A DNA stretch of 64,000 nucleotides from Tistrella mobilis KA081020-065 (GTDB taxonomy: Bacteria; Pseudomonadota; Alphaproteobacteria; Tistrellales; Tistrellaceae): positions 434,001 to 498,000 of the forward strand of contig NC_017958.1 in the NCBI RefSeq assembly GCF_000264455.2, read 5' to 3'. This document shows, in pieces, positions 5,786 to 53,030 of the stretch. Within the stretch, counting starts at the first letter, position 1, and every line of letters starts with the position of its first letter. The position numbers and the translations under genes are program-made. The notes under the pieces are model-generated. The model worked only from the letters and a program-made list of their open reading frames with translations, was not told where the DNA came from and did not search any database.

Positions 5786-5831
5786 GCGGCGGCGCCCCTC
5801 CCGCATTCGTCCCGAGTTGGAGCGACGCCCG

Positions 5832-6221: not shown

Positions 6222-6299
6222 CCGGCAGCCCCCTCTCTCATCCCCCTGACGCTCCCACGATCTTTTCCTCTTCCACGATCTTTCCGAGGATCCGGACAC

Positions 6300-7394: not shown

Positions 7395-8969
<1,575 letters not shown>

Positions 8970-8977
<8 letters not shown>

Positions 8978-32205: not shown

Positions 32206-32238
32206 AAAACCGCCCGGCGGGTCTCCCCGCCGGGCGGT
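32206..32238 (-). terminator. Rho-independent terminator of the thiolase gene
   Basis: ACCGCCCGGCGGG (32209-32221) and CCCGCCGGGCGGT (32226-32238) form a perfect 13-bp stem with a TCTC loop on the plus strand (GAGA on the minus strand). The AAAA at 32206-32209 gives the T-run on the minus strand, 30 bases after the thiolase stop. Confidence 0.85.
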
Positions 32239-32268
32239 TCCGGATCAGCCCGGACACGGCGCTCGGGA

Positions 32269-33453: not shown

Positions 33454-33573
33454 AGGAGCGCTTCCTCGGACGGGCATCCCGGTTCGCGGGTATGCGGGGC
33501 TGATCTGCACGCAGGCGGGCGCCGCCGGCCCCCTCCCGGCCGTGGCACCTTCTCTCGGAAACAAGGCTCTTTC

Positions 33574-33589
33574 ATACGAACGTTTGTGT
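33574..33589. promoter_or_regulatory. Operator-like imperfect palindrome ATACGAAC-GTTTGTGT upstream of the thiolase gene
   Basis: The arms match at 6 of 8 positions and centre on ACGT. On the coding strand it reads ACACAAACGTTCGTAT, similar in style to sites of TetR regulators of fatty-acid catabolism. It lies about 120 bases before the thiolase start. Confidence 0.4.
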
Positions 33590-33659
33590 CAACAGGCCCG
33601 GGCGAACATTCCGCAGGGCGGTATCGGCCTCAACCGTGGGGAGGGGCGGCAGCCGCGGC

Positions 33660-34382
33660 CTAGACCGCCAGATAGGCATCCCTCACATCCGGCCGTGCGT
33701 CCAGCTCGGCCATCGTGCCGGTAAAGCGCACCCGGCCCTTCTCCATCACATAGACCCGGTCGGCCAGCGCGCGGGCGACGGCGAGATTCTGTTCCGACAG
33801 CAGCAGCGCCAGCCCTTCGCGCTTTAGCGTCGCCAGCATCCGGGTCATCTCTTCCACGATCCGCGGCGCCAGCCCCTCGGAGGGCTCGTCCAGCAGCACC
33901 AGCGACGGGTTGCCCATCAGCGTGCGGGCGATGGTCAGCATCTGCTGTTCGCCGCCACTCATCCGCCCCGCCGGCCGGTCGGCCAGTTCGGCCAGGTTGG
34001 GGAACAGCCGGATCAGCGCTTCCACGGTCCAGTGCGGGGCGCCGGGGCGGGCGTCGCGCCGGCCGACTTCCAGATTTTCCAGCGTCGTCAGTTCGGTAAA
34101 GATCCGCCGGTCCTCGGGCACCCAGCCGATGCCGCGGCGGACGATTTCATGGGTCGGCAGCCGCGAGATGTCGGCGCCCTCGAAGGTCACCCGGCCCAGC
34201 CGGCGAGGCACCAGCCCCAGCACCGCCTTCAGCACGGTCGACTTGCCGGCGCCGTTGCGGCCCAGCAGCGCCACCACCTCTCCCGGTGCGACCGAAAGCG
34301 ACAGCCCGTCCAGAATCAGCGCCGAACCATAGAAGGCGCTCAGCTCCTCCACTGCCAGAAGAGCGGCGGGCCCGTCGGTCAT
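33660..34382 (-). CDS. Branched-chain amino acid-type ABC transporter ATP-binding protein (LivF-like)
   Basis: A 240-residue ABC ATPase of the LivF subgroup. Walker A is GRNGAGKST near residue 43, the Q-loop is followed by GWVPEDRRIFTELTTLENL (the LivF mark), the signature is MSGGEQQMLTIARTLM and Walker B is LVLLDEPSEGLAPRIVEEM. It is the last gene of a minus-strand importer: binding protein, fused permease, LivG, LivF. It overlaps LivG by 4 bases. Confidence 0.95.
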   Translation of the reverse strand: MTDGPAALLAVEELSAFYGSALILDGLSLSVAPGEVVALLGRNGAGKSTVLKAVLGLVPRRLGRVTFEGADISRLPTHEIVRRGIGWVPEDRRIFTELTTLENLEVGRRDARPGAPHWTVEALIRLFPNLAELADRPAGRMSGGEQQMLTIARTLMGNPSLVLLDEPSEGLAPRIVEEMTRMLATLKREGLALLLSEQNLAVARALADRVYVMEKGRVRFTGTMAELDARPDVRDAYLAV

Positions 34383-35152
34383 CTCGTCTTATCCCTCCCG
34401 TCCGGCGGCGTGGCGCCACCAAGATAGACCTCGCGCACCCGCGGGTCGGTCCTCACCTCGTCGGGCCGCCCCTCGGCCAGCACCCGGCCGCGATGCAGCA
34501 CCATCAGCCGGTCGGCATGGCCGAAAACGGCATCCATGTCGTGCTCGGTGAACAGCACGCCCATGCCGGTCTCGCGCACCAGCGCCGACACCAGCTGCAT
34601 CAGCCCGGCCCGTTCCGCAGGCGCCATGCCGGCAGTGGGCTCGTCCATCAGCAGCAGTTTCGGCCGGTTGGCGATGGCGATCGCCAGTTCCAGCCGCTTG
34701 ACGTCGCCATAGGCCAGCTCGCCCGCCGCCCGCCCGGCCTGCTCCCCCAGGCCGATCCGATCCAGCAAGGCATTTGCATCGTCCATATGCCGCCGGTCGG
34801 CGCGGCCGAACAAGCGGAAACTCTCTCTGCGGGCCGCAATCAGCGCCGCCTGCACGTTCTCGCGCACGGTCATGGAGCCGAAAACCTCGGTGATCTGGAA
34901 GGTGCGCCCCACCCCCAGCCGCCGGATCCGCCGCGGCGGCCAGCCGGTCACCTCGGTGCCCAGCATCACCACCCGCCCGGCATCGGGGGCAAGCTCGCCG
35001 TTCAGCAGGTTGAAGCAGGTCGATTTGCCGGCGCCGTTGGGGCCGATCAGCGCCAGCATCCGCCCGGCCTCGACCCGGATCGACACCTGGTCGACGGCGC
35101 GTACCCCGCCCCAGGCCTTGACCAGCCCGTCTGCCTCCAGCACCGGCGTCAC
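34379..35152 (-). CDS. Branched-chain amino acid-type ABC transporter ATP-binding protein (LivG-like)
   Basis: About 257 residues. Walker A is GPNGAGKSTCFNLLNGELAP, Walker B LLLMDEPTAGMAPAERAGLM and the LivG-specific stretches are GVGRTFQITEVFGSMTVRENV and TEHDMDAVFGHADRLMVLHRG. The signature is weakened: ELAYGDVKRLELAIAI instead of LSxGxxR, as in other LivG proteins. The start is GTG in a GTGA overlap with the fused permease stop, so the genes are translationally coupled. It pairs with LivF on the fused permease. Confidence 0.93.
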   Translation of the reverse strand: MTPVLEADGLVKAWGGVRAVDQVSIRVEAGRMLALIGPNGAGKSTCFNLLNGELAPDAGRVVMLGTEVTGWPPRRIRRLGVGRTFQITEVFGSMTVRENVQAALIAARRESFRLFGRADRRHMDDANALLDRIGLGEQAGRAAGELAYGDVKRLELAIAIANRPKLLLMDEPTAGMAPAERAGLMQLVSALVRETGMGVLFTEHDMDAVFGHADRLMVLHRGRVLAEGRPDEVRTDPRVREVYLGGATPPDGRDKTR

Positions 35153-36993
35153 CGGCCGTGCCTCCGTGGCAGCAGGGCGGGCAGACCGCCCAGCCCGCGC
35201 GGCACCAGGGCGGCCACCACCACGATCAGCAGGCCCAGAACCAGCTTGGAAAGATCGGTGCTGGCGGTCAGCCAGATCGACAGGCCGCGGAACACGCCCG
35301 CCCCCAGCACGGCGCCCGACACCGTCTCCACACCGCCCAGCAGCACCATCGCAAGCGCATCGACCGACAGCGGAATGGCCAGCACGTCCGGAAACACGCT
35401 GCCCTTCAGATAGGCGTGGAGCACGCCGGCAAGCCCCGCCATCACGCCCGCGACCACGAAGGCCGCCCATTGCATCCGCCGCCGGTCCAGCCCGATCGCC
35501 TCGGCCCGGCGCGGTGCATCGGCCAGGGCGCGCAGCGCCTGGCCGAAGGGCGCGAAGGTGATCATGCGCAGCAGCGCCACGCCCGCGATCGCCACCACCG
35601 CCGCCAGCCGGAAGAATGCTGCGGGGTCGGAAACGGCCCGAGGCGGCCAGACCCCCAGAATGCCGTTGTCGCCGCCGGTGACCGACACCCATTGAAAGGC
35701 GATCGACCAGGCGATCTGGGCGAAGGCGAGCGTCAGCATGGCCAGATAGACGCCCGAAAGCCTGACGCAGAACCAGCCGAACACCACCGCCCCGGCACCG
35801 GCCAGCGCCACGCCCGCCGCAGCCGCCGGCCCCATCGCCAGGCCGAAACCGGTCGCGGCCAGCGCCGTGCCATAGGCCCCCAGCCCGAAATAGGCGGCAT
35901 GGCCGAACGACACCACGCCCGCCGTGCTCATCAGGAATTGCAGGCTCTGGGCGAAAAGCGCGAAGATCGCGATCTCGGCCGCCACCCCCAGCACATAGCC
36001 GCCGGTCACGACGGGCAGGCCCGCCAGCAGCACCACCAGCCCCGCGATCACGGCCGCCCGCACGGGCACCGGCCAGGGGGCCCAGGGCTTGCGCACGAAG
36101 CCGGCCGCGGCCCCGCGTGCCGGCGCCTCGGCCCGCCCCAGCAGGCCCTGCGGCCGCACCACCAGCACCACCGCCATCACCAGGAAGGCGATGACCAGAG
36201 AGATTTCGGGCAGGACCAGAATGCCGAAGGCGTTCAGCTCCGACACGATCACCGCCGCCAGGAAGGCGCCGGTGATGCTGCCCAGCCCGCCGATCACCAC
36301 CACCACGAAGATCTCGACGATGATCCCGAGATCCATGGCGTGAGAAACGGCCGCCCGCGGCAGTTGCAGCGCGCCGCCGAGCCCGGCCAGGAACACGCCC
36401 AGCGCAAACACGCCGGTGAACAGCAGCCGCTGGTCCACGCCCAGCGCCGCCACCATGTCGCGGTCCTGGGTCGCCGCCCGGACCAGAATGCCGAAACGGG
36501 TGCGGCGGAAGATCAGGAACAGCCCCGCCAACACGATCGGTCCAGCGGCGATCAGCACCACATCATAGACCGGCAGCGCCTGCCCCATGATCGTGACCGC
36601 CCCGTCGAGCCCGGGGGCGCGCGGGCCCACCAGATCCTCGGGCCCCCAGATCAGCACCACGATGTCCTGCACCGCCAGCGTCAGCCCGAAGGTCGCCAGC
36701 AGCTGGAACAGTTCCGGCACGCGATAGAGCCGGCGCAGCAGGACGATCTCGGTGATCGCACCCAAGGCCGCGGTCACGGCCGCTGCCGCCAGGATCGCCG
36801 CCCACCAGCCCAGCGCACCCGCCCAGAGCCCGGCGAAGGTCCAGGCCAGATAGGCGCCCAGCATGTAGAAGGCACCATGGGCGAAGTTCACGATCCGGGT
36901 CACGCCGAAGATGATCGACAGCCCCGACGCCGCCAGGAACAGCGAGGATGCACTGGCGAGGCCGGTGAGGAACTGGGCGAGGATCAGGTCCAA
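35149..36993 (-). CDS. Fused LivH-LivM-type ABC transporter permease
   Basis: A 614-residue permease that joins two proteins normally encoded separately. Residues 1-290 are the LivH half (ASGLSIIFGVTRIVNFAHGAFYMLGAYLA, then VVVVIGGLGSITGAF). Residues 320-610 are the LivM half (LGVAAEIAIFALFAQSLQFLMSTAGVVSFGHAAYFGLGAY, VFPDVLAIPLSVDALAMVLLGG). A linker of about 30 residues, rich in Ala/Arg/Pro, connects them. Each half has about eight membrane spans, and both halves keep the EAA-like loop. No ATG is available; the start is TTG. Fusions of this sort occur in some Proteobacteria. The importer probably takes an amino acid, amide or acidic small molecule. Confidence 0.93.
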   Translation of the reverse strand: MDLILAQFLTGLASASSLFLAASGLSIIFGVTRIVNFAHGAFYMLGAYLAWTFAGLWAGALGWWAAILAAAAVTAALGAITEIVLLRRLYRVPELFQLLATFGLTLAVQDIVVLIWGPEDLVGPRAPGLDGAVTIMGQALPVYDVVLIAAGPIVLAGLFLIFRRTRFGILVRAATQDRDMVAALGVDQRLLFTGVFALGVFLAGLGGALQLPRAAVSHAMDLGIIVEIFVVVVIGGLGSITGAFLAAVIVSELNAFGILVLPEISLVIAFLVMAVVLVVRPQGLLGRAEAPARGAAAGFVRKPWAPWPVPVRAAVIAGLVVLLAGLPVVTGGYVLGVAAEIAIFALFAQSLQFLMSTAGVVSFGHAAYFGLGAYGTALAATGFGLAMGPAAAAGVALAGAGAVVFGWFCVRLSGVYLAMLTLAFAQIAWSIAFQWVSVTGGDNGILGVWPPRAVSDPAAFFRLAAVVAIAGVALLRMITFAPFGQALRALADAPRRAEAIGLDRRRMQWAAFVVAGVMAGLAGVLHAYLKGSVFPDVLAIPLSVDALAMVLLGGVETVSGAVLGAGVFRGLSIWLTASTDLSKLVLGLLIVVVAALVPRGLGGLPALLPRRHGR

Positions 36994-37104
36994 GCAGAGG
37001 ATCCGCTAAAGCTGGGGCCGGGCAGCAGACAGGGGGTGCGGGCGATCAGGTGCATCAGTCTACACCGGATGCCCGCGCATGTGCGAGGACGGCGGAAGGA
37101 CGGC

Positions 37105-38322
37105 TCAGCCGCCCGGCCGGAGCTTCGCCGCCTCGGCCTCGGCCGGCAGATAGTCGGCGCCGTTGCGATAGACCGCGTCGACCATCCGCCCCTTGCCGTC
37201 GACCACCGCCGTGCGGCCGACGAAGGCGCCCAGCGTCGACTGATGATCGGCTGCGCGATAGGTGATGGGTCCGAAGGGCGTGTCCACCGCCACCCCCTTC
37301 GCCGCCTCGACCAGGGCCGCGGTATCGGTGGAGCCAGCCTTGGCGATGATCGCCGCGATCGACTTGACCGTCACATAGCCCACGATCGACCCCAGCCGCG
37401 GATGATCGTTCCAGCGCGCCTGATAGGCCTCCAGGAACGTCTTGTGCTCGGGCGTGTCGATCGCATACCAGGGGTAGCCGGTCACGATCCAGCCCTCCGG
37501 CGCCTCGGCGCCCAGCGGGTCCAGATATTCAGGCTCGCCGGTCAGGAAGCTGACCACCGACCGGCTCTTGAACAGGCCGCGGGTCGTCCCCTCCCGGACC
37601 AGCTTCACCAGATCCGGGCCGAAGGTGACGTTCAGGATCGCCTCGGGCTCCGCTGCCGCGATCGCCTGCACCACCGGGCCGGCATCGATCTTGCCCTGCG
37701 GCGGCCACTGCTCCGCCACCCATTCGATATCGGGACGCTTTTCCGACAGCAGCTTGCGGAACTCGGCCACGGCCGACTGGCCGTATTCGTAGTTGGGCGC
37801 GATGGTCGCCCAGCGCTTCGCCGGCAGCTTCGCCGCCTCTTCGGCCAGCATCGCCGCCTGCATATGATTGCTGGGCCGCAGGCGGAAGGTGACGTCATTG
37901 CCCTTCGACCAGACCAGCGCATCGGTCAGCGGCTCGGCGGCCAGGAAGAACACCTCGCGCCGCGCGGCATAGTCGGCGACCGCGAGACCGACATGGGAGA
38001 AGAAGGTGCCGGCGACCAGCGCCACCTCTTCGCGGGTCACCAGCTCGTTCACCGCATTCAGCGCATCGGCCGGCTTGCCGGCATCATCGCGCGAGACGAA
38101 TTCCAGCGGCCGCCCCAGCACGCCGCCCGCCGCATTCACCTCGTCCAGCGCCAGCTGCCAACCCTTGCGATAGGGCTCGGTGAAGGCCGGCAGCGCCGAA
38201 TAGCTGTTGACCTCGCCCACCCGGATCGACTCGGCAGCCCGCAGGGGCGCCCCCGCCGCCGCCATCCCGGCAACGATACCAAGCGCCGCCAGCACGGCGC
38301 GGGAAAGCTGGATCCTGGTCAT
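37105..38322 (-). CDS. Branched-chain amino acid-type ABC transporter substrate-binding protein
   Basis: A 405-residue periplasmic binding protein (Peripla_BP_6 family). A signal peptide occupies residues 1-30 (RIQLSRAVLAALGIVAG..., cleavage after LRAA). The core opens IRVGEVNSYSALPAFTEPYRKGW and has DEVNAAGGVLGRPLEFVSRDDAG, the family's nucleophile-free ligand lobe, then KRWATIAPNYEYGQSAVAEF. The ATG is preceded by GGAGAGAG. It is first in the importer run, 111 bases before the fused permease. Ligand not deducible; the absence of the usual ALTLPGSA-type serine loop for Leu/Ile/Val suggests something other than a branched-chain amino acid. Confidence 0.93.
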   Translation of the reverse strand: MTRIQLSRAVLAALGIVAGMAAAGAPLRAAESIRVGEVNSYSALPAFTEPYRKGWQLALDEVNAAGGVLGRPLEFVSRDDAGKPADALNAVNELVTREEVALVAGTFFSHVGLAVADYAARREVFFLAAEPLTDALVWSKGNDVTFRLRPSNHMQAAMLAEEAAKLPAKRWATIAPNYEYGQSAVAEFRKLLSEKRPDIEWVAEQWPPQGKIDAGPVVQAIAAAEPEAILNVTFGPDLVKLVREGTTRGLFKSRSVVSFLTGEPEYLDPLGAEAPEGWIVTGYPWYAIDTPEHKTFLEAYQARWNDHPRLGSIVGYVTVKSIAAIIAKAGSTDTAALVEAAKGVAVDTPFGPITYRAADHQSTLGAFVGRTAVVDGKGRMVDAVYRNGADYLPAEAEAAKLRPGG

Positions 38323-38479
38323 GAGCAAACTCTCTCCGCAACGGGCCCGCAGATCTGGCCGCGGGCGCCGGAATGTCCTGTCCCGCACAGGTAATGCTTA
38401 TCCGGAGCAAAAGTCCACCGCTTCGATCAGATCCGCCGGCCAGGGAGGCATGCGGGCATGCCGCATGCCGGTCGCCCTC

Positions 38480-39394
38480 CTAGCCGAAGCGGACCTGTGT
38501 CAGGTCCTGCGAAACCTCCCACAATCGCGCCGCGGTCTTGTGATCCTCCGCCTGCGGCGGGAGCAGGGCCGGGGCCGGGAAGCCGCGGAGTTCGCTCATC
38601 CTGTCAGGGCCGTAATAGCCGCCACCCGTCGCCTCGGGTGAGGTCGCCGCGTAAAGCGTGGGCAGGGCACCCCGTTCTGCGGGCTGAAACAGGAACCACA
38701 GATACCTCCTCGCCATGCCGGACAGGCTCTGCCGGCCGGGGCCGTCGCGCAGCAGCCCGGTGCGGGAGACGCCCGGATGAGCGGCCATGCTCGTGATGCC
38801 CCAGCCGGCAGCCTCACTGCGTCTCTGCAGTTCAAGCGCGAACATCAGGCAGGCGAGCTTCGACTGACTGTAGGCCGGCATCGGTCTGTAGCCGCGCGCC
38901 GCGTTCAGATCGTCGAAATCGATCGTGCCGGTGCGGGCGGCGATGCTCGACAGGCTGACCACCCGGGGATGACTGCCATTCCTGAGCAATGGCAGGAGAT
39001 GCGCCGTCAGCGCGAAATGACCGAGATAATTGACGCCCCATTGCAGCTCGAAGCCATCCGCCGTCTGCTGTCGTCTGGGCGGGACCATCACACCGGCATT
39101 GTTGATGAGCAGATCGAGCCTTCCCCACGTCGCGCCCAGCCGCACGCCGAAATCGGCAACCGAGTCGAGGCTGGCGAGATCGAGACGTTCGAAGGCGATC
39201 CTGGCGCCGGGCGTGGCCGCCCGGATCCGTCCGACGGCGTCTGCCCCCTTTGCCGCATTGCGCCCGGCCAGGATCACCTGCACCCCGGCGCGGGCAAGCG
39301 CGCGAGCCGTTTCGTAGCCGAGGCCGCCGGTGCCGGTGATGACGGCCGTGCGTCCGTTCTGGAAAAGGATGTCGTCCATGGTCCATCTGGTCAT
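38480..39394 (-). CDS. Short-chain dehydrogenase/reductase of the retinol dehydrogenase-like type
   Basis: A 304-residue SDR. The cofactor loop is ITGTGGLGYETARALARAG, one residue shorter than the normal T-G-x-x-x-G-x-G, followed by LAGRNAAKG (the Arg favours NADP). Other motifs are LDLLINNAGVM (N-N-A-G), SLSSIAARTG (catalytic Ser) and AYSQSKLACLMFALEL (Y-x-x-x-K), then AAHPGVSRTGL. The length and layout match the WWOX/retinol-dehydrogenase branch of SDRs. AGGA lies upstream of the chosen ATG. It is the last gene of a minus-strand operon after a methyltransferase and a molybdenum hydroxylase. Substrate not known. Confidence 0.9.
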   Translation of the reverse strand: MTRWTMDDILFQNGRTAVITGTGGLGYETARALARAGVQVILAGRNAAKGADAVGRIRAATPGARIAFERLDLASLDSVADFGVRLGATWGRLDLLINNAGVMVPPRRQQTADGFELQWGVNYLGHFALTAHLLPLLRNGSHPRVVSLSSIAARTGTIDFDDLNAARGYRPMPAYSQSKLACLMFALELQRRSEAAGWGITSMAAHPGVSRTGLLRDGPGRQSLSGMARRYLWFLFQPAERGALPTLYAATSPEATGGGYYGPDRMSELRGFPAPALLPPQAEDHKTAARLWEVSQDLTQVRFG

Positions 39395-39444
39395 CTGTCG
39401 GATCCTTCGATCTCGCGGCCCGCATCGCGGCCATGAATTGACCA

Positions 39445-40041
39445 CTACGCAGGCAGCGCATCGCGCCGGGCGACACGATAGACCGCGGCCGGCGGAAGGT
39501 TGCGCAGCGTGCCGCCCAGGCGTCGCGCCTCAAGACCGAGCCGATCGAGGATCGGCCGCTCGACCGGGCATCGCGGGACATAGGTGAACTGGTAGAACGC
39601 CCCTGACGGACCCAGGCTGGCGAACGCACCCGCAAGAATGGCGAACACCATCCGGGTGGACATCGACAGCAGACCGAGGCCACTGACGACGGCGCCGGCT
39701 TCCGCACCGGGAAACAGTCTCAACCCTGAGAGACGCACGGCACTGGCATGGACGATGTTCGCCCGTGGGAACCGTCTCTTCAGAAGTGTGACGAACGCCG
39801 CGTCGAATTCGACCAGCGTCAGATCCCGCTCGTCGATCCCGCGATCGATCAGGGCTTGGGTGAAGACGCCGGTCCCGGGGCCGAGTTCCAGGATCGGGGC
39901 GTGAGAGGCCCCGATTTCGCTGGTGATCAGCCGTGCCAGTGCGGCGCCCGAAGGTGCCAGCGCCGCGACCCGCAACGGGTTCGCCATCCAGGCGCGAAAA
40001 AAACGGGCTTGGTCGGAGAGCATGGATGCATTCCGTTTCAT
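39445..40041 (-). CDS. Class I SAM-dependent methyltransferase, PmtA-like
   Basis: A protein of about 198 residues resembling rRNA-dimethyladenosine-like small methyltransferases and phospholipid N-methyltransferase PmtA. FFRAWMANPLRVAALAPSG opens the protein, followed by the SAM motif ILELGPGTGVFTQALIDRG, the acidic strand LTLVEFDAAFVTLL, and VVSGLGLLSM at motif IV. The ending has FYQFTYVPRCPVERPIL, the PmtA-like loop. Starts at 40062, 40041 or 40023 are possible; none has a strong ribosome site. It follows the molybdenum hydroxylase large subunit by 40 bases and precedes an SDR by 50, so all four are probably one transcript. A phospholipid or small-molecule substrate is possible. Confidence 0.8.
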   Translation of the reverse strand: MKRNASMLSDQARFFRAWMANPLRVAALAPSGAALARLITSEIGASHAPILELGPGTGVFTQALIDRGIDERDLTLVEFDAAFVTLLKRRFPRANIVHASAVRLSGLRLFPGAEAGAVVSGLGLLSMSTRMVFAILAGAFASLGPSGAFYQFTYVPRCPVERPILDRLGLEARRLGGTLRNLPPAAVYRVARRDALPA

Positions 40042-40081
40042 GAACGAGGGTCCCGGGACCATCGGATCTGATGCGATCGTG

Positions 40082-42400
40082 TCAGGCTTGGGTCGTGCGC
40101 AGGATCGTCCGTGTGCGCCCGTCCCCCACGGTCTCGGTGGTGGCGAGCGGCAGGGAGCGCAGGCGCAGGCCGGTCGCTGCGCGAACCGCATTTGCAATCG
40201 CTGCCGCGACGGGGACGATGCCGGGTTCCCCCGCGCCGCCCGGGGGCAGGTCGCTCCCGACGATCTCGACCGTCACGGCGGGGGCGTTGTGCAGGCGCTG
40301 CATGGGAAAGTCGTGGAAGTTCGACTGCATCACCGCACCGTTTTCCAGCGTGATCATGCTGTTCAATGCGGAGGTGACGCCGAAGATAATGCCGCCCTCC
40401 ATCTGGGCCATCACCGCATCGGGATTGATCACCAGCCCCGCATCGATCGCACAGAACACCCGATCCACGGTGATCTCGCCATCCCCGGCAACCGTGACCT
40501 CGGCCACCTGAGCCACCACGCTTTGATAGCAGTCCTCGATGGCGATGCCGCGCCCGCGCCCCGGCGCCATGGAACTGCCCCAGCCGGCCATCCCGGCCAC
40601 GCGCTCCAGGACGCGCAGATGGCGGGGATTGTCGCGCAGAAGTACCCGGCGATAGTCCACAGGATCGATCCGCGCGGTCAGCGCGCAGTCGTCGATGAAG
40701 CTTTCCGTGAAGAAGGTGTTGAAGGAAAACCCGTTCGATCGCCACAGACCGATCGGCACATGGCTGGGAACGTTCTGGCTGCGCACCCGCCGGTTCGGGA
40801 TGGCATAACAGGGTTTTTCCAGCCCTTCGATCGCCAGGCGATCGCCGTCGGGACCGGGCGTGAACGGCAGGTTCCGGCCGGCGACCGAATGTATGACCGA
40901 CTGCGTCGCGACCAGCGCATCCCAGGCGACGGGCAGGCCGTCCGCGCCCAGCACCGCGCGCAGCCGTGCAGCCGCATGGCTGCGGAACAGGCCGCGACCG
41001 ATATCCTCTTCACGCGGCCAGACCAGTTTGACCGGCCTTCCGCGATGGCGTGCCGCAAGATACGCGGCCTGCGCGACCACATCCTGGTCGCTGCGGCGCC
41101 CGAATCCGCCGCCGTTCATCGTGATGTTGCAGGTGATGTCGGCGACGCTGACGCCGGCGCGGCCGGCGCCGCTGCGTATCCCGGTCCGCACGCTCATGGG
41201 CGATTGCGACGGCACCCAGGCTTCGGCCGACCCGTCCGGCCGGATGATCACCGTCGCGTTCATCGGCTCCATGCAGGCATGGGCCACGAAAGGCGCGTCA
41301 CAGGTGGCCTCGACCAGGGTTGCCGGGTTGGCCGCGATGACCGCATCCACATCTCCCATCTCGACGTTTTCATAGGGCGTCTCGCTGCGCAGCCCGGCCC
41401 TGAGTGCTGCGGACAGCGTGCTGTCGGACACGTGATCCGCGTCGGTCGGCGTCCACGCGATCTCCAGGCGTCGGGCAGCGCTCTCGGCCTGCCACCACTG
41501 ATCACCAACCACCGCGACACTCTTGCCGTCGATGACCACGACATCTACGATTCCGGGTTCGCGACGCACCTCGGCGGCATTGATGACGCGTGCGACACCT
41601 GCCCCAAACACGGGAGCCTGGCGGATCGTGGCGTGCAGCATCTCGGGGCGTACGACATCGATGCCGAAGACGGGCTCGCCTCTGACCTTGGCCGGCACGT
41701 CGACCCGGGGCTGGTACCTGCCCATCACCCGCCATTCGGCCGCCGGCTTCAGCGGCGGATCGTCGGGCGGCGGCATGAAGGCGGCGTCACGCGCAAGGTC
41801 GCCATAGGACAGGCTGCGACCGGACGCGTCGTGCCGGACCTTGCCGTCGCCGGTCGAAAGCTGGGCAACGGGCACGCCGAGCCGGGCCGCGCCGGCCGCG
41901 AGCAGCATGTGGCGCGCCGACGCGCCCGCAACCCGCATGGGATGCCACAGCGCCATGGTCGACGCCGACGCGCCGGTGGCGATGAAGCCCGCCAGGCCGA
42001 GCACGCGCCGCCCGACCCAGACCACCGGCCCGCTCGCCTCTTCCGGGCGCACGCGCAGAATATTGAACCAGTTGGAATAGGCCGGCAGCGGCTCGACCGG
42101 GAACTCCACCCGGATGCGATCGTCGAAGGGAATGTCCAGCTCTTCCGCCACGACCATGGCGAGCCCGGTATGGATGCCCTGCCCCATCTCGGTCTTCGGA
42201 ACCCGGATGACCACGCGACCGTCGCCATGGATGGTCAGGAAGGCGTTGAGTGCGGCACCGTCGTCGTCGACGGAGCTTGCGCGCCCGTCCACATCGATGG
42301 TCGCAAGATAGCCGGCACCACCGACGGCGGCGACCAGCGCCGTGCCGCCGAGCGCGGCGCCGGTCCACAGGAAAGTGCGTCGGGACAGAAGACGGGGCAT
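40082..42400 (-). CDS. Molybdenum hydroxylase large subunit (IorB-like, molybdopterin-binding), Tat-exported
   Basis: A 772-residue molybdopterin oxidoreductase of the aldehyde/isoquinoline oxidoreductase beta-subunit type. A twin-arginine signal is at the N-terminus (SRRTFLWTGAALGGTALVAAV). The core has the split aldehyde-oxidase domains with GFGRRSDQDVVAQAAYLA and GGAGEPGIVPVAAAIANAV, the latter the Moco-ligating region with the catalytic Glu (G-E-P-G-I), plus PMNATVIIRPDGSAEAWVPSQ. The operon has no FAD-binding middle subunit, as in Ior-type enzymes that pass electrons to a cytochrome or other acceptor in the periplasm. It starts 10 bases after the small subunit stop. Substrate could be an N-heterocycle or an aldehyde. 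Confidence 0.92.
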   Translation of the reverse strand: MPRLLSRRTFLWTGAALGGTALVAAVGGAGYLATIDVDGRASSVDDDGAALNAFLTIHGDGRVVIRVPKTEMGQGIHTGLAMVVAEELDIPFDDRIRVEFPVEPLPAYSNWFNILRVRPEEASGPVVWVGRRVLGLAGFIATGASASTMALWHPMRVAGASARHMLLAAGAARLGVPVAQLSTGDGKVRHDASGRSLSYGDLARDAAFMPPPDDPPLKPAAEWRVMGRYQPRVDVPAKVRGEPVFGIDVVRPEMLHATIRQAPVFGAGVARVINAAEVRREPGIVDVVVIDGKSVAVVGDQWWQAESAARRLEIAWTPTDADHVSDSTLSAALRAGLRSETPYENVEMGDVDAVIAANPATLVEATCDAPFVAHACMEPMNATVIIRPDGSAEAWVPSQSPMSVRTGIRSGAGRAGVSVADITCNITMNGGGFGRRSDQDVVAQAAYLAARHRGRPVKLVWPREEDIGRGLFRSHAAARLRAVLGADGLPVAWDALVATQSVIHSVAGRNLPFTPGPDGDRLAIEGLEKPCYAIPNRRVRSQNVPSHVPIGLWRSNGFSFNTFFTESFIDDCALTARIDPVDYRRVLLRDNPRHLRVLERVAGMAGWGSSMAPGRGRGIAIEDCYQSVVAQVAEVTVAGDGEITVDRVFCAIDAGLVINPDAVMAQMEGGIIFGVTSALNSMITLENGAVMQSNFHDFPMQRLHNAPAVTVEIVGSDLPPGGAGEPGIVPVAAAIANAVRAATGLRLRSLPLATTETVGDGRTRTILRTTQA

Positions 42401-42409
42401 GGGAACACC

Positions 42410-42874
42410 TTACGTCCGGGTCATCATGGAGGCGGCACGGTGGATCGCGCGGCGGATGCGCGGATAGGTGCCACAGCGACAGATGTTGGTGATCGCCTCG
42501 TCGATCTCGGCATCGGTGGGCGCGGGGGTCCGGGCCAGAAGTTCCGTTGCGGCGATGATGAAGCCCGGCTGGCAGTACCCGCATTGGGGAACCTGCTCGT
42601 CGATCCATGCCTGCTGGACGACCGACAGCCTGCCGTCCGGATCCGCGAGCCCTTCGATCGTGACCACCGAAGCGCCGCCGAGGCTGCCGATCGGATGCAT
42701 GCAGGACCGTATCGCCTCGCCATCGACGAGCACCCGGCAGGCGCCGCACTGCCCCACGCCGCAGCCATATTTGGGGCCGAGCACCCCCAGATCCTCGCGC
42801 AGCACCCAGAGCAGCGGCTTGTGATCCGGTGCCGCGACCTCGACCCGGCGGCCGTTCACCGTCAGCGCGACCAT
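42410..42874 (-). CDS. Molybdenum hydroxylase small subunit, [2Fe-2S] (IorA-like)
   Basis: A 154-residue two-cluster ferredoxin-type subunit. The plant-type [2Fe-2S] ligands are in KYGCGVGQCGACRVLVDG and the following SCMHP; the second cluster ligands are CGYCQPG and CRCGTY, as in the xanthine-dehydrogenase family. The start is supported by GGAGG. It has no signal peptide, so it is probably exported while bound to its Tat-tagged partner. The gene is followed by the large subunit after 9 bases. Divergent from an AraC regulator 239 bases away. Confidence 0.94.
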   Translation of the reverse strand: MVALTVNGRRVEVAAPDHKPLLWVLREDLGVLGPKYGCGVGQCGACRVLVDGEAIRSCMHPIGSLGGASVVTIEGLADPDGRLSVVQQAWIDEQVPQCGYCQPGFIIAATELLARTPAPTDAEIDEAITNICRCGTYPRIRRAIHRAASMMTRT

Positions 42875-43113
42875 CCGACGCCTCCACGACCGGTTCCCGC
42901 CACGGCCGGGCTGACCCTGATCTGCGGCGCACATCCGACATCTCTGCCCGTCATCATCGACCTCCAGCCTGTTGCATCTCTGGAAGATGAAAACGAAGGC
43001 CAGGCCCTTCATGCCGGAACGCGCAAAAAACTTGCCCGATTCTCCAAGGTGCTGGTGCGGTGCGGAATTCGTGCCTAGGCTTTTTCCGTATCGACACCGG
43101 CGGGAGCAGCACG

Positions 43114-44010
43114 ATGCGGCAGGAATTGAGGGAAGTTGTGGCGCGCTATGTTGCAAGCCATGGCGGCCCGGACGCGGTCTCGCGGACAGCGGTTCAGGAC
43201 GTCATCCTCATGTGCAGCACGAAAGAGCGCATGCCCTTCCGCAAGGCTTACAAGCCGTCGCTCTGCGTGGTCGTTCAGGGCGCCAAGCGCATCGAGCTTG
43301 AAGATCGGAGCTTCGACTATTCGGCCGGCAGCGCACTGATCATCAGTATCGGCCTGCCGGGCTTCGGCAGCGTGACGCAGGCGACGAAGGCGGAGCCCTT
43401 CCTCGGCATGACCATCGAATTCGACATCGCCCTGCTGCGCGAGGTTCTCGATCAGATGCCCTCGCCTCCGCGGCCGGCGGAAGAACGGCTCGGCGTCTTT
43501 GTCGAGGAGCTGTCGGACCCGGTTCAGGATTGCCTTATCCGGCTCGTACAGCTGTTCGAAACCCCCGATGCGGTTCCCGTTCTCTACCCCGCAACCGTCA
43601 GGGAATTGTATTACCGGCTTCTGTCGGGCCCGAATGGCGGCGAGATCTGCAAGATCGCGCGTGCCGGCAGCCACACCCAGCGCATCGCGGAAGCGATCCA
43701 TCTGATGCGCGGGAATGTCGGGCAGCCACTCAGCATCGAGGAGCTGGCACATGCCGCCGGCATGGGTGTGTCGTCCTTCCATCAGCACTTCAAGACGCTG
43801 ACCTCGATGACACCGCTGCAATATCACAAGCAGCTGCGGCTTCTGGAAGCGCGGCGCCTGATGGTGGCGGAAGCCGCCAGCGTGACCAGCGCCGCCTTCC
43901 GCGTCGGCTATGAAAGCCCCTCGCAATTCAGCCGGGAATACACGCGGCTGTTCGGGACTGCGCCCAAGAAGGATGCCATGTTCCTGAAGAGTCTGCCCGT
44001 GCAGCTTTGA
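43114..44010 (+). CDS. AraC-family regulator divergent from the molybdenum hydroxylase operon
   Basis: A 298-residue AraC regulator with the AraC_N sensing domain of the YqhC-like type: CSTKERMPFRKAYKPSLCVVVQGAKRIELEDRSFDYSAGSALIISIGLPGFG. The C-terminal two helix-turn-helices are SIEELAHAAGMGVSSFHQHFKTLTSMTPLQYHKQLRLLEARRLM and VTSAAFRVGYESPSQFSREYTRLFGTAP. YqhC-like regulators sense aldehydes and activate a reductase, which fits an oxidoreductase operon in divergent position. GGGAG precedes the ATG. Its codons are slightly less G/C-rich than those of its far neighbours. Confidence 0.92.
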   Translation: MRQELREVVARYVASHGGPDAVSRTAVQDVILMCSTKERMPFRKAYKPSLCVVVQGAKRIELEDRSFDYSAGSALIISIGLPGFGSVTQATKAEPFLGMTIEFDIALLREVLDQMPSPPRPAEERLGVFVEELSDPVQDCLIRLVQLFETPDAVPVLYPATVRELYYRLLSGPNGGEICKIARAGSHTQRIAEAIHLMRGNVGQPLSIEELAHAAGMGVSSFHQHFKTLTSMTPLQYHKQLRLLEARRLMVAEAASVTSAAFRVGYESPSQFSREYTRLFGTAPKKDAMFLKSLPVQL

Positions 44011-44110
44011 CCGTCTGCACCGCCGCGATCTGGTCACTGCCCTCCGGTCGCAGGGCATGATATGAACAGCCGGTGAATCACCGTCCGGAGGGGCCGCGCG
44101 TCCTCGATCC

Positions 44111-44704
44111 ATGCCGCAATCCATCGTCGATCTGCTGATGTCCGCCGGTCTCGCCGGGGTTGCCTTTCTGGCCTTCGCCGAGAAATACGTGCCGATCATC
44201 CCCTCCTATGTGATGCTCGCCGCTTTCGGTGCGCTGGGCGATCAGATGGAAGGCGGCATCGTCGCGACCGTCGTGGCGGCCACGATCGGGTCGGTGATCG
44301 GCGCGGTCGGCTGGTACTGGGTCGGCCGGGTGCTGTCGGAACGCGCCGAGCGCTTCGTCGCCCGCCGCGGCCGCTATATCCTGCTCACCCCTAAGCTCTA
44401 TACCCGGATGCGCGACGCCTATGGCCGCCGCCCCTTCCTGGTGACGCTGATCGCCCAGACCATTCCCACGGTCCGGATTTTCATCGGCCTGCCGGCCGGC
44501 GTGATGCGCATGCCCTTCCGGCCCTATCTCGCCGCCACCATCGTCGGCACCGCGCTCTGGAACACGCCGCTGGTGGTGCTGGGCGACGTGCTCGCCGAAA
44601 GCCGGATGGACACCACCCAGGTGATGATGTGGTTCGCGGCCGCCGTGCTCGCGGTGGAAGTCACCGCCTTCCTGGTCTGGCGGCTGATGCGGCGGCCCGG
44701 CTGA
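44111..44704 (+). CDS. DedA/SNARE-associated (YqjA-like) family membrane protein
   Basis: A 197-residue DedA-family inner-membrane protein with four or five hydrophobic spans. The family marks are the acidic-proline stretch FAEKYVPIIPSYVMLAAFGAL near the N-terminus, GWYWVGRVL and the amphipathic region TLIAQTIPTVRIFIGLPAGVMRMPFRPYLAATIVGTALWNT, where the conserved R and G-x-x-R/P motif lies. DedA proteins help flip or recycle lipid carriers and keep proton motive force. No coding neighbour is obviously linked; sbcD follows after 108 bases. Confidence 0.92.
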   Translation: MPQSIVDLLMSAGLAGVAFLAFAEKYVPIIPSYVMLAAFGALGDQMEGGIVATVVAATIGSVIGAVGWYWVGRVLSERAERFVARRGRYILLTPKLYTRMRDAYGRRPFLVTLIAQTIPTVRIFIGLPAGVMRMPFRPYLAATIVGTALWNTPLVVLGDVLAESRMDTTQVMMWFAAAVLAVEVTAFLVWRLMRRPG

Positions 44705-44812
44705 TCCGCCTCCGGGCCGCAGCCTCTTCCGCTCCCCCATCGGCCGCGTGTATCTTCCGCTCTTCCACTTCCCGCCGCGGGCGAGACCGCCCCGGCGCAG
44801 ACCGGAACGGGC

Positions 44813-46060
44813 ATGCGCATCCTCCACACCGCCGACTGGCATCTGGGTCAGGAGCTGCACGGTTTCGACCGCGGCGCCGAGCACGACCGTTTCCTCGTCT
44901 GGCTGCTCGACACGCTGGACGAAGACGCGATCGATGCGCTGGTGGTGGCGGGCGATGTCTACGACACGGTCAACCCGCCGGTCGCCGCCCAGCAGCGGCT
45001 CTACCGCTTCCTGAACACCGCCCTGGCCCGCCGGCCCGGGCTCGACATCGTGATCGTCGGCGGCAATCACGACGGGCCCAGCCGGCTGGAACTGCCGGCG
45101 CCACTGCTCGACCGGTCGCGGATCTCGATTTTCGGCGCCCTGCCCCGCAGCGACGGCCGGCCCGATCCCGCCCGCACGCTGGTGCCGCTCACCGATGAAG
45201 CCGGACAGGTGGCCGCCGTGGTCGCCGCCATCGCCTATCCCCGCCCGGGGGATCTGCCGGTCGACGGCGGCGGTGCCGCGGCGCTGGCCGCGATCTATGC
45301 CGAGGCTCTCGCCGCCGCCCGCGAGCGCTTCCCCGGCCTGCCGGTGATCGCGACCGGCCATCTCCACGTCACCGGCGGCGACGTTTCGGCCGAAAGCGAA
45401 CGGCCGGTGATGATCGGCGGCGAGGAGGCGCTGTCGCCCGACCTCTTCCCCGAGGGCTATGCCTATGTCGCCCTCGGCCATCTGCACCGCGCCCAGGGGC
45501 TGAAAGCCGCCATGCCGCTGCGCTATGCCGGCGCCCCCTTCCCGATGTCGATGGCGGAACGCAGCTACCGCCATTCGGTGGTGCTGGTCGAAACCGACGG
45601 GTGCGGCCCCGCAACCCACCGGCTGATCCCGGTGCCGCGCCCGGTCGCCTTTCTGCGCGTGCCCGAAACCGGGGCGCTCGACCCCGAGGCGGCGCTCGCC
45701 GCGGTCGCAGCCCTCGACATCGCCCCACCCGAAAGCCCCGATCTCCGCCCCTATCTGGAGGTCGTGGTCGCGATCGACGCCCCCGTCCCCGATCTCCGCC
45801 GCCGGGTCGCCGAGGCGCTGGGCGATACGCCGGTGCGCCTTGCCCGGGTGCGTTCGCTCAGCCGCGGCAGCGGCGGCAGCCTCGCCGACGGCGCCAGCCT
45901 GCCGCCCGCCCTCGACGAGATCGATCCGGCCGACGTCTTCGCCCGGCTGCACCGCCAGCGTTTCGATACCGACCCGCCCGACGCACTGGCCCGCGCCTTC
46001 GCCGAACTGCTCGCCGACGCCCATGCCGGCCCCGACACCGATGCCGGGGAGACCGCCTGA
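44813..46060 (+). CDS. sbcD: Exonuclease subunit SbcD
   Basis: A 415-residue nuclease subunit of SbcCD (Mre11-like), which cuts hairpins and protein-blocked DNA ends. All five calcineurin-like phosphoesterase motifs are present: ILHTADWHLGQ, VVAGDVYDTVNPP, VIVGGNHDGPSRLE, TGHLHVTGGD and VALGHLHRAQG. The C-terminal 120 residues form the capping and SbcC-binding part. Its stop TGA overlaps the sbcC start (TGATG), so the two subunits are coupled. Upstream is a DedA gene. Confidence 0.96.
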   Translation: MRILHTADWHLGQELHGFDRGAEHDRFLVWLLDTLDEDAIDALVVAGDVYDTVNPPVAAQQRLYRFLNTALARRPGLDIVIVGGNHDGPSRLELPAPLLDRSRISIFGALPRSDGRPDPARTLVPLTDEAGQVAAVVAAIAYPRPGDLPVDGGGAAALAAIYAEALAAARERFPGLPVIATGHLHVTGGDVSAESERPVMIGGEEALSPDLFPEGYAYVALGHLHRAQGLKAAMPLRYAGAPFPMSMAERSYRHSVVLVETDGCGPATHRLIPVPRPVAFLRVPETGALDPEAALAAVAALDIAPPESPDLRPYLEVVVAIDAPVPDLRRRVAEALGDTPVRLARVRSLSRGSGGSLADGASLPPALDEIDPADVFARLHRQRFDTDPPDALARAFAELLADAHAGPDTDAGETA

Positions 46061-49000
46061 TGCGCCTGCTCCGGATCCGCGGCCGCAACCTCGCCAGCCT
46101 TCAGGACGATTTCATCATCGATTTCGAGGCCCCACCGCTCGCCCATGCCGGCATCCTCGCGATCACCGGCCCGACCGGCGCCGGCAAGTCGACCCTGCTC
46201 GATGCCGTCTGCCTGGCGCTCTACGATGCCCTGCCGCGCACCGCCGGCGCTGGTGCCCGCGGTGAGACCCGCGACCTCGCCCTCAATGACGGCCGCCGGA
46301 TCCTCAGCCATGGCGCGGGTGAGGCCGAGGCCGAAATCGATTTCATCGGCCGCGACGGCCGCCGCTACCGGGCGGGCTGGAGCGTGCGTCGCGCCCGGGG
46401 CAGGGCCACCGGTACGCTGCAGGCGGCAAAGCGGGTGCTGATCGATCTGGAGGCCGGCCAGGTGGTCGCCGACGGCAAGCGCGATGTCGGTATCGAAATC
46501 GCGGCCCGGATCGGGCTCGATTTCGACCAGTTCCGCCGGTCGGTCCTGCTCGCCCAGGGCGATTTCGACGCCTTTCTGCGCGCCGATGCCCGCGACCGCG
46601 CCGATCTGCTGGAGAAGATCACCGGCACCGGCATCTATGGCCGGCTGTCGCGTGCAGCCTTCGAGCGCAACAAGGCCGCCCAGGCCGAGATCGAGCGCAT
46701 CCGTCTTCAGCTTGGGGAGCACCAGCCGCTCGACGACGCAGCCCGGGCCGAGGCCCAGGCCGCCGCGGAGGCGGCGCGTCATGCCCTCGCCGCCGCCCGT
46801 GCCCGGCAGGAGGCCGCCGCCGAAACCCTGCGCCGCATCGATCGCCGCCTGTCGCTGGAGGCGGCCCGGACCGCCGCGGCAGAAGCCCTGGAAGCCGCCC
46901 GCCTTGCCAATGACGCCGCCTCCCCCGACCGCGACCGGCTGGCCCGCAACCGCCAGGCCCTGGCCGCTCGGGCCGAACTGGCGGCGGCGGATGCCGCCAC
47001 CGCCGGGCTGGCCCGGACCCGCGAGCGGCTTGGCGCGGCCACCGGCGCCCTTGCCCGGGCCGAGGCCGATCACGAAGCCGCACGCACTGCCCGGACCGAG
47101 GCCGAAGCCGCCGTCGGCCGCTGCCGGGACGAAGACGCCGCCCGCGCCCCGCATCTGGCCGAGGCGCGACGGCTGGACGAACAGCTTGGTGCCGCCGCCC
47201 GGGCCCTCGCCCAGGCCCGCCGCGACGCCGAAGCGGCCGCCGACATCGCCACCGGCCATCAGGCCGCCTCCGACCGGCTGGCCGCCGTCATCGCTGCCGC
47301 CGAGGCCCGTGAGACCGCCGCCCTGGCCCGACTGGCAGCGCTGGCGGCAGCCGCCCCGCCGGTCGCCGATCCGGAGGCCGCGGCCGAAACCATCCTGGAG
47401 CGTGCGCCCCTCGGTGACGAACTGCGTCGGCTGACCGTCGGGCTCGACGATCTTCAGGCGCGCGACCGCGCCGATGCCGCAGAGGCCGACCGCCTCGCCG
47501 CCGCCCGCGACGATGCCGCCCGCCGCATGACCGGCCTTGCCGAGGCGATCACCGCCGCCGAGGCCGAGGCCGACCAGGCGGAGGCACGGGCACTGCGCCG
47601 CCGCCGCGACCGGCTGGTCGAGATCGGCCATCACCTCGACGACCTCTCCGAGGTGATGGTTGCAGCGCTTGAGGCCACGCGCGCCCGCGACGCCCATGCC
47701 GCCACGGCCGAAGACGCGATGCAGGCTGCTGCAGCCGCAACTGCCGAGGCCGAACGCCACCGCGCCGCCCTGCCGGTGGTCGAAGCGAAGCTCGAAGAGG
47801 CCGGCCGCGCCGCCGACCTGTCATCGGCCGCGGCCGAGGAACATGCCGGCCGGCTGCGTGCTCTGCTGATCCCGGGTGCGCCCTGCCCGGTCTGCGGTTC
47901 GACCGATCATCCGACCCGTGCGATCGACGACCTGCTCGCCCGACGGCTCGACACCGACCGCGCCCGGCTGGCCGATCTCAAGGCCGAGCTTGGCGCCCTC
48001 ACCACCGCCCTCGCCCGGGCGGAAGAACGGGCGCGCGCCGAAACCCGCCGCGCTGCCGACGCAGCCACCGCCCGTGAGGACTCGGCGGAAACCCTCGCCG
48101 CTGCGACGGCCGACCACGAGGCACTGCTCACCCGGCTGGCAGATGAAGCGGCCGAGGCCGGGCTCGATGCCCTGCCGCCCCTGCCCGCCGCCGAAGCCGC
48201 TCACGAAACGACCGACCATCGGCCGCCGGCTGCCCGCCTCGCCGGCTGGCGCGAGGCCGTCACCGATGCAATCGAGGCGGCCGAGGTTCGGATCACGACG
48301 ATCGACGCCGCCGCCGCCCGGGCCGCCAGCCTCCGCCGCGACCACACTGCCGCCACCCGCGATCGGGATGCGGCCGCCGAAGCGCTCGCCCGCCTGGCCG
48401 CGCGCCGGGCCGAAGCCGGGGCCGCGATCGCCCGCGGCGAGCAGCGCCGCACCGATCTCGCCGCCCGCATCGCCCGGCTGGACGAGCGGCTGGCCACCCT
48501 GCTCGATGCCGCCTGTCCCGACTGGCGGAACAGCCTCGCCGCCGACGCCGCGGGCTTCGCCGCCCTGATCCGACGCCGGGCCGCCGAACTGGCCGAAGCG
48601 CAGAGCACCGCCGAAGCCGCACGGGCCGAGCGCATTCGCCTCGCCCCTGACCATGCCGCCGCCCGGGTCCGCGCCGAAACCGCCGCCGACGCCGCCAGCC
48701 ACGCCACGACACTTGCCGAGGAGTGCGCCCGCAGCCATGCGGCCCTTCAGGACGCCCGCACCATGCTGCTCGACGGCCGGTCGGTCGCGGCGGTCGAGGC
48801 CGGGGCAGAGGCCGCCCGCAACACCGCGCGCATGGCCCTCGATGCCGCCCTCACCCGCCTCACCGAGGCTGCGACCGCCCGCGCCCGGGCGATGGAAGCC
48901 CGCCATCAGGCAGAGGTGGCGGTGACTGCCGCGGCAGAAACATCCACCGCTGCCGATGCCGCGCTCGAGACCGCCCGCGCGGCGCTCGACATGGATCCGG

Positions 49001-49848: not shown

Positions 49849-49864
49849 GCACGGCTTCCGCGCA

Positions 49865-49894
49865 TAAAAAAGGGGCCGCCCGCGGGCGACCCCT
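49865..49894 (-). terminator. Rho-independent terminator of the taurine-type aminotransferase gene
   Basis: AGGGGCCGCCCG and CGGGCGACCCCT form a 12-bp stem with one mismatch (49871-49894). The A-tract 49866-49871 is a T-run on the minus strand. It lies 40 bases past the aminotransferase stop and also just after sbcC in convergent orientation. Confidence 0.8.
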
Positions 49895-49933
49895 CTTCAG
49901 TCTGCCGGCCAGCCGTCGGTCACCAGCCGCCGG

Positions 49934-51304: not shown

Positions 51305-51328
51305 CGTGACGGCTCCGGTTCGGTCGGG

Positions 51329-51342
51329 CCTGTGGCAACAGG
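51329..51342. promoter_or_regulatory. Palindrome in the Tpa/MocR divergent promoter
   Basis: CCTGTGGCAACAGG has 5-base perfect arms (CCTGT/ACAGG) and lies 25 bases from the aminotransferase start. It could be part of the MocR recognition region; known TauR sites are direct repeats, so the assignment is weak. Confidence 0.3.
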
Positions 51343-51525
51343 TCCGTGATCATCCATCGAGCTACGCCGTTTCGCGCGGCCGCGACAGGTCCACGGCCCG
51401 TCATTCTATGGAACCACGACCAACGTCCTCTGCCGCTCCCGCCGGCACAATGTCCGGACTGCTGGCTTTCCTGCCCGGCTTTCGTGCAATACTGACCGGG
51501 TACGACCTCCCAGGAAGGCCCCCGC

Positions 51526-52989: not shown

Positions 52990-53030
52990 TGTGATGCGAC
53001 GGGTGCCCGCGACCGGCAAAAGGCCTCAGA

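Follow-up and report, generated by a model that had tools for sequence, protein, structure and literature searches.

A recurring gene set around a two-subunit molybdenum hydroxylase of Tistrella mobilis and its possible link to membrane-lipid modification

Molybdenum hydroxylases of the two-subunit kind are numerous, and most of them have no known substrate. In a 64 kb stretch of the Tistrella mobilis KA081020-065 genome (G000:C4:434001-498000, hereafter the window, to which positions below refer), the genes of an IorA-like and an IorB-like subunit (hereafter IorA and IorB) are followed by those of a PmtA-like methyltransferase (MT) and a short-chain dehydrogenase/reductase (SDR). Comparison of 23 related loci, all at the level of sequence, indicates that these genes, in many cases accompanied by a gene for a DedA membrane protein, belong to a recurring gene set, and this conclusion is well supported. 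The reading favoured here, with a confidence slightly short of even, is that the set represents a conserved cell-envelope module joining the Mo hydroxylase, the SDR, the PmtA-type MT and the DedA protein against a reactive compound. Each part is known already; the whole looks like an operon of the Mo-hydroxylase kind to which a lipid side, not expected for such enzymes, is attached.

The window comes from a contig of 1.13 Mb, and the genome totals 6.5 Mb in five contigs. Four genes lie on its minus strand, separated by gaps of 9, 40 and 50 bases: IorA (42410-42874, 154 residues), with Fer2 and Fer2_2 Pfam domains for two [2Fe-2S] clusters; IorB (40082-42400, 772 residues), the Mo-cofactor subunit with MoCoBD_1 and MoCoBD_2 domains and a twin-arginine translocation (Tat) motif; the MT (39445-40041, 198 residues); and the SDR (38480-39394, 304 residues). 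An AraC_N-type transcription factor gene (43114-44010, plus strand; AraC_N and HTH_18 domains) diverges from them across an intergenic region (42875-43113) that presumably contains the promoters of both units, and is followed on the same strand by the gene of a DedA/VTT membrane protein (44111-44704), a probable further member. No gene for a flavin adenine dinucleotide (FAD) subunit was found within the window cluster. The original prediction, made from this DNA alone, had described four co-directional genes with gaps of 40 and 50 bases, a two-cluster ferredoxin subunit, a Tat motif on the large subunit and no FAD subunit, all of which is borne out by the gene calls, Pfam domains and sequence; the DedA gene and the regularity of the partnership with MT and SDR were absent from it. 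Neither a terminator nor a promoter between the Mo hydroxylase and MT genes, which it had named as signs against a common operon, was seen in a consensus scan of positions 38300-44200. No terminator-like site lies between any of the four genes in this range (the four sites detected, versus 2.6 expected by shuffling, are located at 42993-43075 and 44145-44157), and no sigma-70-like promoter was detected there, the consensus being a weak test at 63-75% G+C.

Judged from their identity values, IorB relatives fall into two classes, and the window IorB belongs to a discrete subfamily (23 loci, 64-100% identity; other IorB matches are at most 44% identical where listed). A peptide-pattern scan of 84,980 species revealed 18 loci at 65-75% identity (a nineteenth match, at 28%, was dropped), a minimum, as members can escape such patterns. 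Of 107 plasmid records with a match, 3 reached 64-74%, and the other 104 were below 60% (37-42% among the matches listed). Among 385 genomes of the class, subfamily IorB was present only in the window genome (G000) and its congener G162, the other 12 matches (E ≤ 1e-150) being 37-44% identical. The 18 pattern loci, the three plasmid loci, the window and G162 make up the 23 loci, which are kin and not 23 independent events; their hosts belong to Rhizobiaceae, Phyllobacteriaceae, Aurantimonadaceae, Pleomorphomonadaceae, Acetobacteraceae and relatives, Azospirillaceae (Skermanella) and Roseobacteraceae (Palleronia).

Partners were counted by tblastn within 9 kb, since the gene caller erred on some genes (few were found in L082). 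IorA adjoins IorB in all 23 loci. An SDR of at least 60% identity occurs in 21 loci (not in L016 or L085; in L085, from Rhizobium etli 8C-3, it lies elsewhere on the same plasmid), and an MT likewise in 21 (absent from L016, and the L014 contig ends after the SDR). This count includes two MTs split over two reading frames, without a listed coding sequence, at 10242-10777 of L085 (R. etli 8C-3 plasmid) and 9380-9933 of L086 (Palleronia plasmid). DedA was found in 16 of the 23 loci (absent from L011, L012, L013, L023, L086 and L087; L014 was not assessable). The conserved-neighbourhood search proposed in the original prediction thus recovered both partners in nearly all loci, and the MT and SDR, which it had taken to be unusual companions of such enzymes, are regular partners of this IorB subfamily. 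A chance operon of unusual partners was rejected by the 23-locus comparison.

Gene content is kept across at least six gene orders. The window order, IorAB-MT-SDR, is shared with L074, L023, L087 and, with the split MT, L086. The order is IorAB-SDR-MT in L011 and L012, IorAB-SDR-DedA-MT in L018, L020, L024 and L027, and IorAB-DedA-MT, with the SDR upstream past AraC and a major facilitator superfamily (MFS) gene, in L015, L017, L025 and L028; L013 (without DedA) and L085 (split MT, no SDR) are variants of the last arrangement. DedA-MT-IorAB-SDR was observed in L022, SDR-IorAB-MT-MT-DedA in L019, and IorAB-SDR facing MT-DedA in L021 and L026, while partial sets comprise IorAB-DedA only (L016) and IorAB-SDR up to the contig end (L014). 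Because the content survives this reshuffling of order, a joint function is suggested.

The MT is called PmtA-like because it scores well below the cut-off of the NCBIfam PmtA equivalog, and its Pfam assignments are marginal (RrnaAD at 24.2 bits versus a cut-off of 24; Methyltransf_25 narrowly missed at 26.8 versus 27). Among solved structures, its sole strong match by sequence is Agrobacterium tumefaciens PmtA (AtPmtA; 9ko3/9ko5, 1.4e-16). In searches with a structure model (predicted local distance difference test, pLDDT, 85.8), three 9ko3 chains ranked first (E 7.9e-16 to 6.8e-15; next entry 3.6e-9), with TM scores of 0.86-0.90 on the target; in this structural comparison the MT and AtPmtA are 28-29% identical. 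Gly121, Phe152 and Tyr154 of the MT align with Ala128, Ile159 and Tyr161 of AtPmtA, a single numbering offset of 23 fitting all. In an alignment of 22 MTs, which includes two non-module paralogues and leaves out L085 and L086, Gly121 is kept in every row, whereas the residues of the S-adenosylmethionine (SAM) motif E/DxGxGxG (E52, G54, G56 and G58), Phe152 and the groove residue Tyr154 are kept in 21 rows and deviate only in the degenerate second copy of L019. The corresponding residues of BdPmtA are Gly130, Phe161 and Tyr163 and its product is mainly monomethyl-phosphatidylethanolamine, and the Ile159Phe exchange shifts the products of AtPmtA likewise towards the monomethyl form (PMC12139422). 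Since the MT groove is Gly/Phe/Tyr like that of BdPmtA, the product should be mainly monomethyl-phosphatidylethanolamine if phosphatidylethanolamine (PE) is the substrate. The MT thus shares fold, SAM motif and catalytic tyrosine with AtPmtA and BdPmtA, but differs from them in its low identity to AtPmtA, its score below the PmtA equivalog cut-off and its place within a Mo-hydroxylase operon.

As to the N-terminal amphipathic helix that marks PmtA, the MT model has a helix at residues 4-20, with a pLDDT of only about 50; the hydrophobic moment, an uncontrolled value, was 0.30-0.58 in 11-residue windows starting at residues 1-16. Because the MT has a PmtA fold, the catalytic tyrosine and the head-group groove, and is accompanied by DedA in 16 of 23 loci, a membrane lipid appears to be a likelier substrate than a hydroxylated small molecule. 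In a tree of 51 MTs, 17 of 20 module MTs fell within one 25-row group (96/96), and those of L021 and L026 and the degenerate second copy of L019 were placed, together with another MT of the window genome (L076), in a 9-row group (99/96). If this tree is right, PmtA-like MTs entered the module at least twice; the tree is rough, with an unsettled bootstrap and many open forks, and is used solely for this two-lineage statement.

IorAB has the sequence features of a two-subunit, FAD-less enzyme of the xanthine oxidase family with a Tat motif, and it is probably exported and active in the periplasm. The eight cluster cysteines of IorA are conserved in all 22 aligned rows (L027 lies outside both this and the IorB alignment). 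IorB begins with the twin-arginine motif SRRxFL. All 22 rows share its R7 and R8, and also Glu725 of the GAGEPG motif, which we take to be the catalytic glutamate. The best PDB matches of the two proteins are the small and large subunits of one aldehyde dehydrogenase (8gy3_B for IorA, 9e-48; 8gy3_C for IorB, 4.3e-54), presumably the membrane-bound enzyme of Gluconobacter oxydans; a structure model of IorB was poor (pLDDT 62) and was not used. Isoquinoline 1-oxidoreductase IorAB consists of a two-cluster small subunit and a Mo subunit, with no FAD subunit, and the window enzyme resembles both it and the 8gy3 enzyme in this composition. The aldehyde dehydrogenase of acetic acid bacteria (AldFGH) additionally has a haem-c subunit. 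Unlike the 8gy3-type enzyme, the window enzyme has the MT, SDR and DedA as partners, and no haem-c gene was found near any of the 23 loci when all six frames were searched for CxxCH up to 3 kb from IorB, a scan that is blind to cytochromes without CxxCH (the annotated c-type cytochrome of L109 has none) or encoded elsewhere. Nine CxxCH frames occurred, in 8 of the 23 loci. Eight of these frames cross IorB or AraC, but in a different frame or on a different strand; the ninth, a doubtful one in L023, begins 2.6 kb from IorB and crosses other called genes. The six-frame scan recovered the di-haem subunit of a control Mo hydroxylase (L112), which had been missed by a scan of called genes that gave nothing and was discarded. 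PaoABC of Escherichia coli has an FAD subunit. It shares the enzyme family with IorAB, although the match is weaker (3.3e-17) and the FAD subunit is found on the PaoABC side only. PaoABC is a periplasmic xanthine-oxidase-family enzyme acting in aldehyde detoxification (PMC3958847).

The SDR is of the PRK05854/PRK06197 kind (Pfam adh_short; its NCBIfam match above cut-off was obtained on a slightly longer reading frame), and its orthologs are 88% identical in the congener G162 and 61-69% in 19 of 21 loci outside the genus. The VTT domain of DedA scores 77.9 bits versus a Pfam gathering cut-off of 33.9. In a tree of DedA proteins, a branch with 100/100 support separates those of 16 IorB loci and four plasmid MT loci, the G033 protein and one from G159 from nine background rows, which were picked by similarity to module DedAs; long branches were flagged. 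DedA and MT genes overlap by 4 bases in L021, L022, L026, L110, L111 and L112. The DedA protein PetA is a transporter of PE, and undecaprenyl phosphate is bound or moved by PA4029 and UptA (PMC12893004). The window DedA shares the VTT domain with UptA and PetA, but scores far below the UptA cut-offs and forms a subclade of its own. The MFS protein of the rhizobial loci matches 6e8j best (3.4e-43) and the SPNS1 and SPNS2 transporters more weakly.

AraC is one of two regulator kinds near the set, the other being a two-component pair. AraC (at least 40% identity, within 9 kb) was found in 9 of 23 loci, namely the window, L074, L013, L015, L017, L021, L025, L028 and L085, and in L085 the copy beside the MFS gene is fragmented and a second one is 8.7 kb distant. 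Nine loci have an OmpR/EnvZ-like pair (at least 60%): L011, L012, L014, L016, L018, L020, L024, L027 and L086; the histidine kinase and response regulator queries were taken from L020 and L016, so these two match by construction. L087 contains a kinase at 84%, cut by the stretch end, L021, L022 and L026 have a less similar two-component pair, and L019 and L023 have neither regulator kind. YqhC contains AraC_N and HTH_18 domains. Of the divergent "YqhC-like" regulator in the original prediction, the divergent AraC_N and HTH_18 gene is confirmed, whereas the likeness to YqhC comes down to the AraC_N domain. YqhC responds to aldehydes (PMC6115493, PMC8262776).

A close relative of the window genome, G033, which is called the same species, has no subfamily IorB and no such SDR, and its MTs are paralogues of 64% and 41% identity. 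Its DNA matches window positions 32209-38419 (96%) and 44019-53945 (93%) with only 57 bases in between (L088). Thus, the SDR, MT, IorB, IorA and AraC genes are missing as one block (about 38420-44018, with edges uncertain by a few tens of bases), and DedA and an ABC-transporter operon are retained. G162, of the same genus and more distant than G033, stays collinear with the window across the block (91.5% identity), and for this reason a single loss in G033 would be a simpler and more parsimonious account than two separate gains. Since the block ends at AraC, the tie between DedA and the other genes is not a strict one in this genus. The window genome and its close relative G033, which lacks the block, lend themselves to a natural comparison. 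The retained operon, directly downstream of the SDR (33660-38322), contains branched-chain-amino-acid/urea-type ABC transporter genes, with both permease domains fused in one 614-residue reading frame (35149-36993). On the other side, at 44813-49848, lie two adjoining genes that are presumably sbcD and sbcC, which they resemble.

Parts of the set also occur apart from this IorB. Genes for orthologs of the SDR, DedA, MT and MFS proteins are grouped without it at two Shinella loci (L111, L121), one Agrobacterium locus (L112) and one locus of Rhizobium SU303 (L118, where DedA is in two overlapping pieces), and an AraC gene, cut by the stretch edge, was seen in the IorB-less sets L111, L118 and L121. 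Among 19 plasmid MT loci, which were chosen for variety and not randomly among 40 listed of 101 matched records and include some near kin, seven have DedA beside the MT and six have an SDR ortholog. Just before the MT of L116 (Pararhizobium qamdonense plasmid p2), a 34-residue stretch resembling the start of DedA (4385-4486) looks as if DedA had been deleted. The MT-DedA pair was rejected as a general feature of the class: in a test covering 64 of the 81 genomes holding an MT relative, 14 of the 64 hold such a DedA, and it adjoins the MT in 0 of 12 without the module; among the plasmid loci above the pair is more frequent. The SDR was rejected as a module marker because it is not specific (of four class genomes with an ortholog, two carry the module and two do not), and the SDR plasmid locus of R. 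etli IE4771 has a VTT gene and no MT. Mo-enzyme genes were observed near MT relatives in L080, L083, L109, L112 and L116. In L080 (G135:C21:1-12000, 1364-5742) an MT relative comes directly after a three-subunit Mo hydroxylase, and in L083 (G216:C47:13000-22475, 5952-9245) one lies in a row with XdhC and a gene for a MobA-like nucleotidyltransferase; by position, these two loci connect the MT family to Mo enzymes beyond the module as well. In the window genome, the MT paralogue of 64% identity (L073, G000:C4:796000-814000, 5802-9395) adjoins genes for a MerR-type regulator and, divergently, a heavy-metal P-type ATPase; by gene positions the layout is the same in G033 (L079) and G162 (L075), and G015 (L081) has a similar ATPase-MerR-MT set. 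A further set that recurs, an intradiol dioxygenase and a metallo-beta-lactamase (MBL) hydrolase, was found near IorAB, SDR, DedA or MT genes on Rhizobium, Shinella and Martelella plasmids (L085, L111, L114, L118, L128); an aldo/keto reductase, which was not observed in L114, and sometimes a LysR gene accompany it.

In the cell-envelope module proposed above, IorAB would oxidise a reactive compound in the periplasm, most likely an aldehyde, and pass the electrons to some acceptor, and in the cytosol a carbonyl or alcohol form of it would be the substrate of the SDR. At the inner membrane face the MT would methylate PE, mainly to the monomethyl form by its groove residues, and DedA might even out the changed lipid between the leaflets. 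The combined outcome would be removal of the compound and a membrane less open to it. The protective purpose of methylation is a guess, and so is the aldehyde trigger, which is suggested by the 8gy3 match, the AraC_N regulator and the aldo/keto reductases near relatives. A more specific version, defence against reactive carbonyls by periplasmic and cytosolic destruction combined with masking of the free amine of PE, a chief target in the membrane, through N-methylation and DedA-mediated transbilayer movement, is considered unlikely as it stands.

Several results weigh against such a module. Scores against NCBIfam equivalogs are low for the MT (PmtA, 91 bits, cut-off 250), for DedA (UptA, 95 bits, cut-off 300, although UptA models are still its best NCBIfam matches), and for IorA and IorB within the xanthine oxidase family (at best 139 bits, cut-off 217, and 140, cut-off 780), and the CxxCH scan yielded no haem-c partner. 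DedA is missing in 6 of the 22 assessable loci and in the window genome it may be an old neighbour, the two split MTs are in broken frames, and L016 has neither MT nor SDR within the available flanks. MT relatives also occur in other contexts, including MerR and heavy-metal ATPase genes (L073, L081), cell-wall genes (L115, L120), a pseudoazurin/DsbA neighbourhood (L113) or surroundings without recognised module genes (L107, L122, L123). The SDR ortholog was found without MT, DedA or IorAB around it in G360 and G276, and without an MT or VTT gene at three of the four SDR plasmid loci opened (A. fabrum C58, Agrobacterium T29 and Paracoccus).

These observations leave room for other explanations. 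The original prediction had suggested a small-molecule pathway, in which IorAB would hydroxylate a heterocycle or oxidise an aldehyde, the MT would methylate the product, the SDR would oxidise or reduce it, and AraC would sense the compound. The same-strand unit fits this, and a catabolic flavour is given by the SDRs, aldo/keto reductases, intradiol dioxygenase and MBL hydrolases near several relatives and by protocatechuate genes near the Palleronia locus. However, the fold, the tyrosine and the groove of the MT are those of a PmtA-like enzyme, the MT accompanies DedA even where this IorAB is absent, and the Tat motif would place IorAB outside the membrane and the MT inside, so that hydroxylation followed by methylation of a small molecule now seems rather improbable. 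Somewhat more doubtful still is a general envelope-stress locus (responding to cationic peptides, copper or solvents), in which MT and DedA would be central and the Mo hydroxylase an optional extra. SDR-DedA-MT sets without this IorAB, the OmpR/EnvZ-like regulators (with scores below equivalog cut-offs), the 64% paralogue beside MerR and heavy-metal ATPase genes, and the reported association of DedA proteins with polymyxin or colistin resistance are consistent with it, but the other Mo-hydroxylase genes near MT relatives (L080, L109, L112, L116, and XdhC in L083) and the joint absence of IorAB and MT from G033 weigh against it. Mere hitch-hiking of neighbours that move together on plasmids or islands without joint function would explain the occurrence of members on plasmids or in sporadic genomes, and the 1.13 Mb contig of the window may, by its size, itself be a megaplasmid; it is considered very unlikely, as content is kept while order and strand reshuffle and two MT lineages are in use according to the rough tree.

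In the open-licence PubMed Central (PMC) literature, no paper was found on a Mo hydroxylase with DedA and a methyltransferase, or on an operon of DedA and a phospholipid N-methyltransferase, and among the open-licence PMC papers listed in wider searches none joins these parts in its title or the start of its abstract. MprF modifies the head group of a lipid in the inner leaflet and then moves this lipid across (PMC11980842). It is a functional analogue only, with aminoacylation by one protein as against the proposed methylation and movement by two; if defence by amine masking were true, the MT and DedA would do with two proteins, and by methylation instead of aminoacylation, what MprF does with one. 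Among the literature searched, a subfamily with a PmtA-type MT and DedA would be the first link of such a hydroxylase to membrane-lipid modification, and the question of its function becomes testable by thin-layer chromatography of lipids and an aldehyde growth curve.

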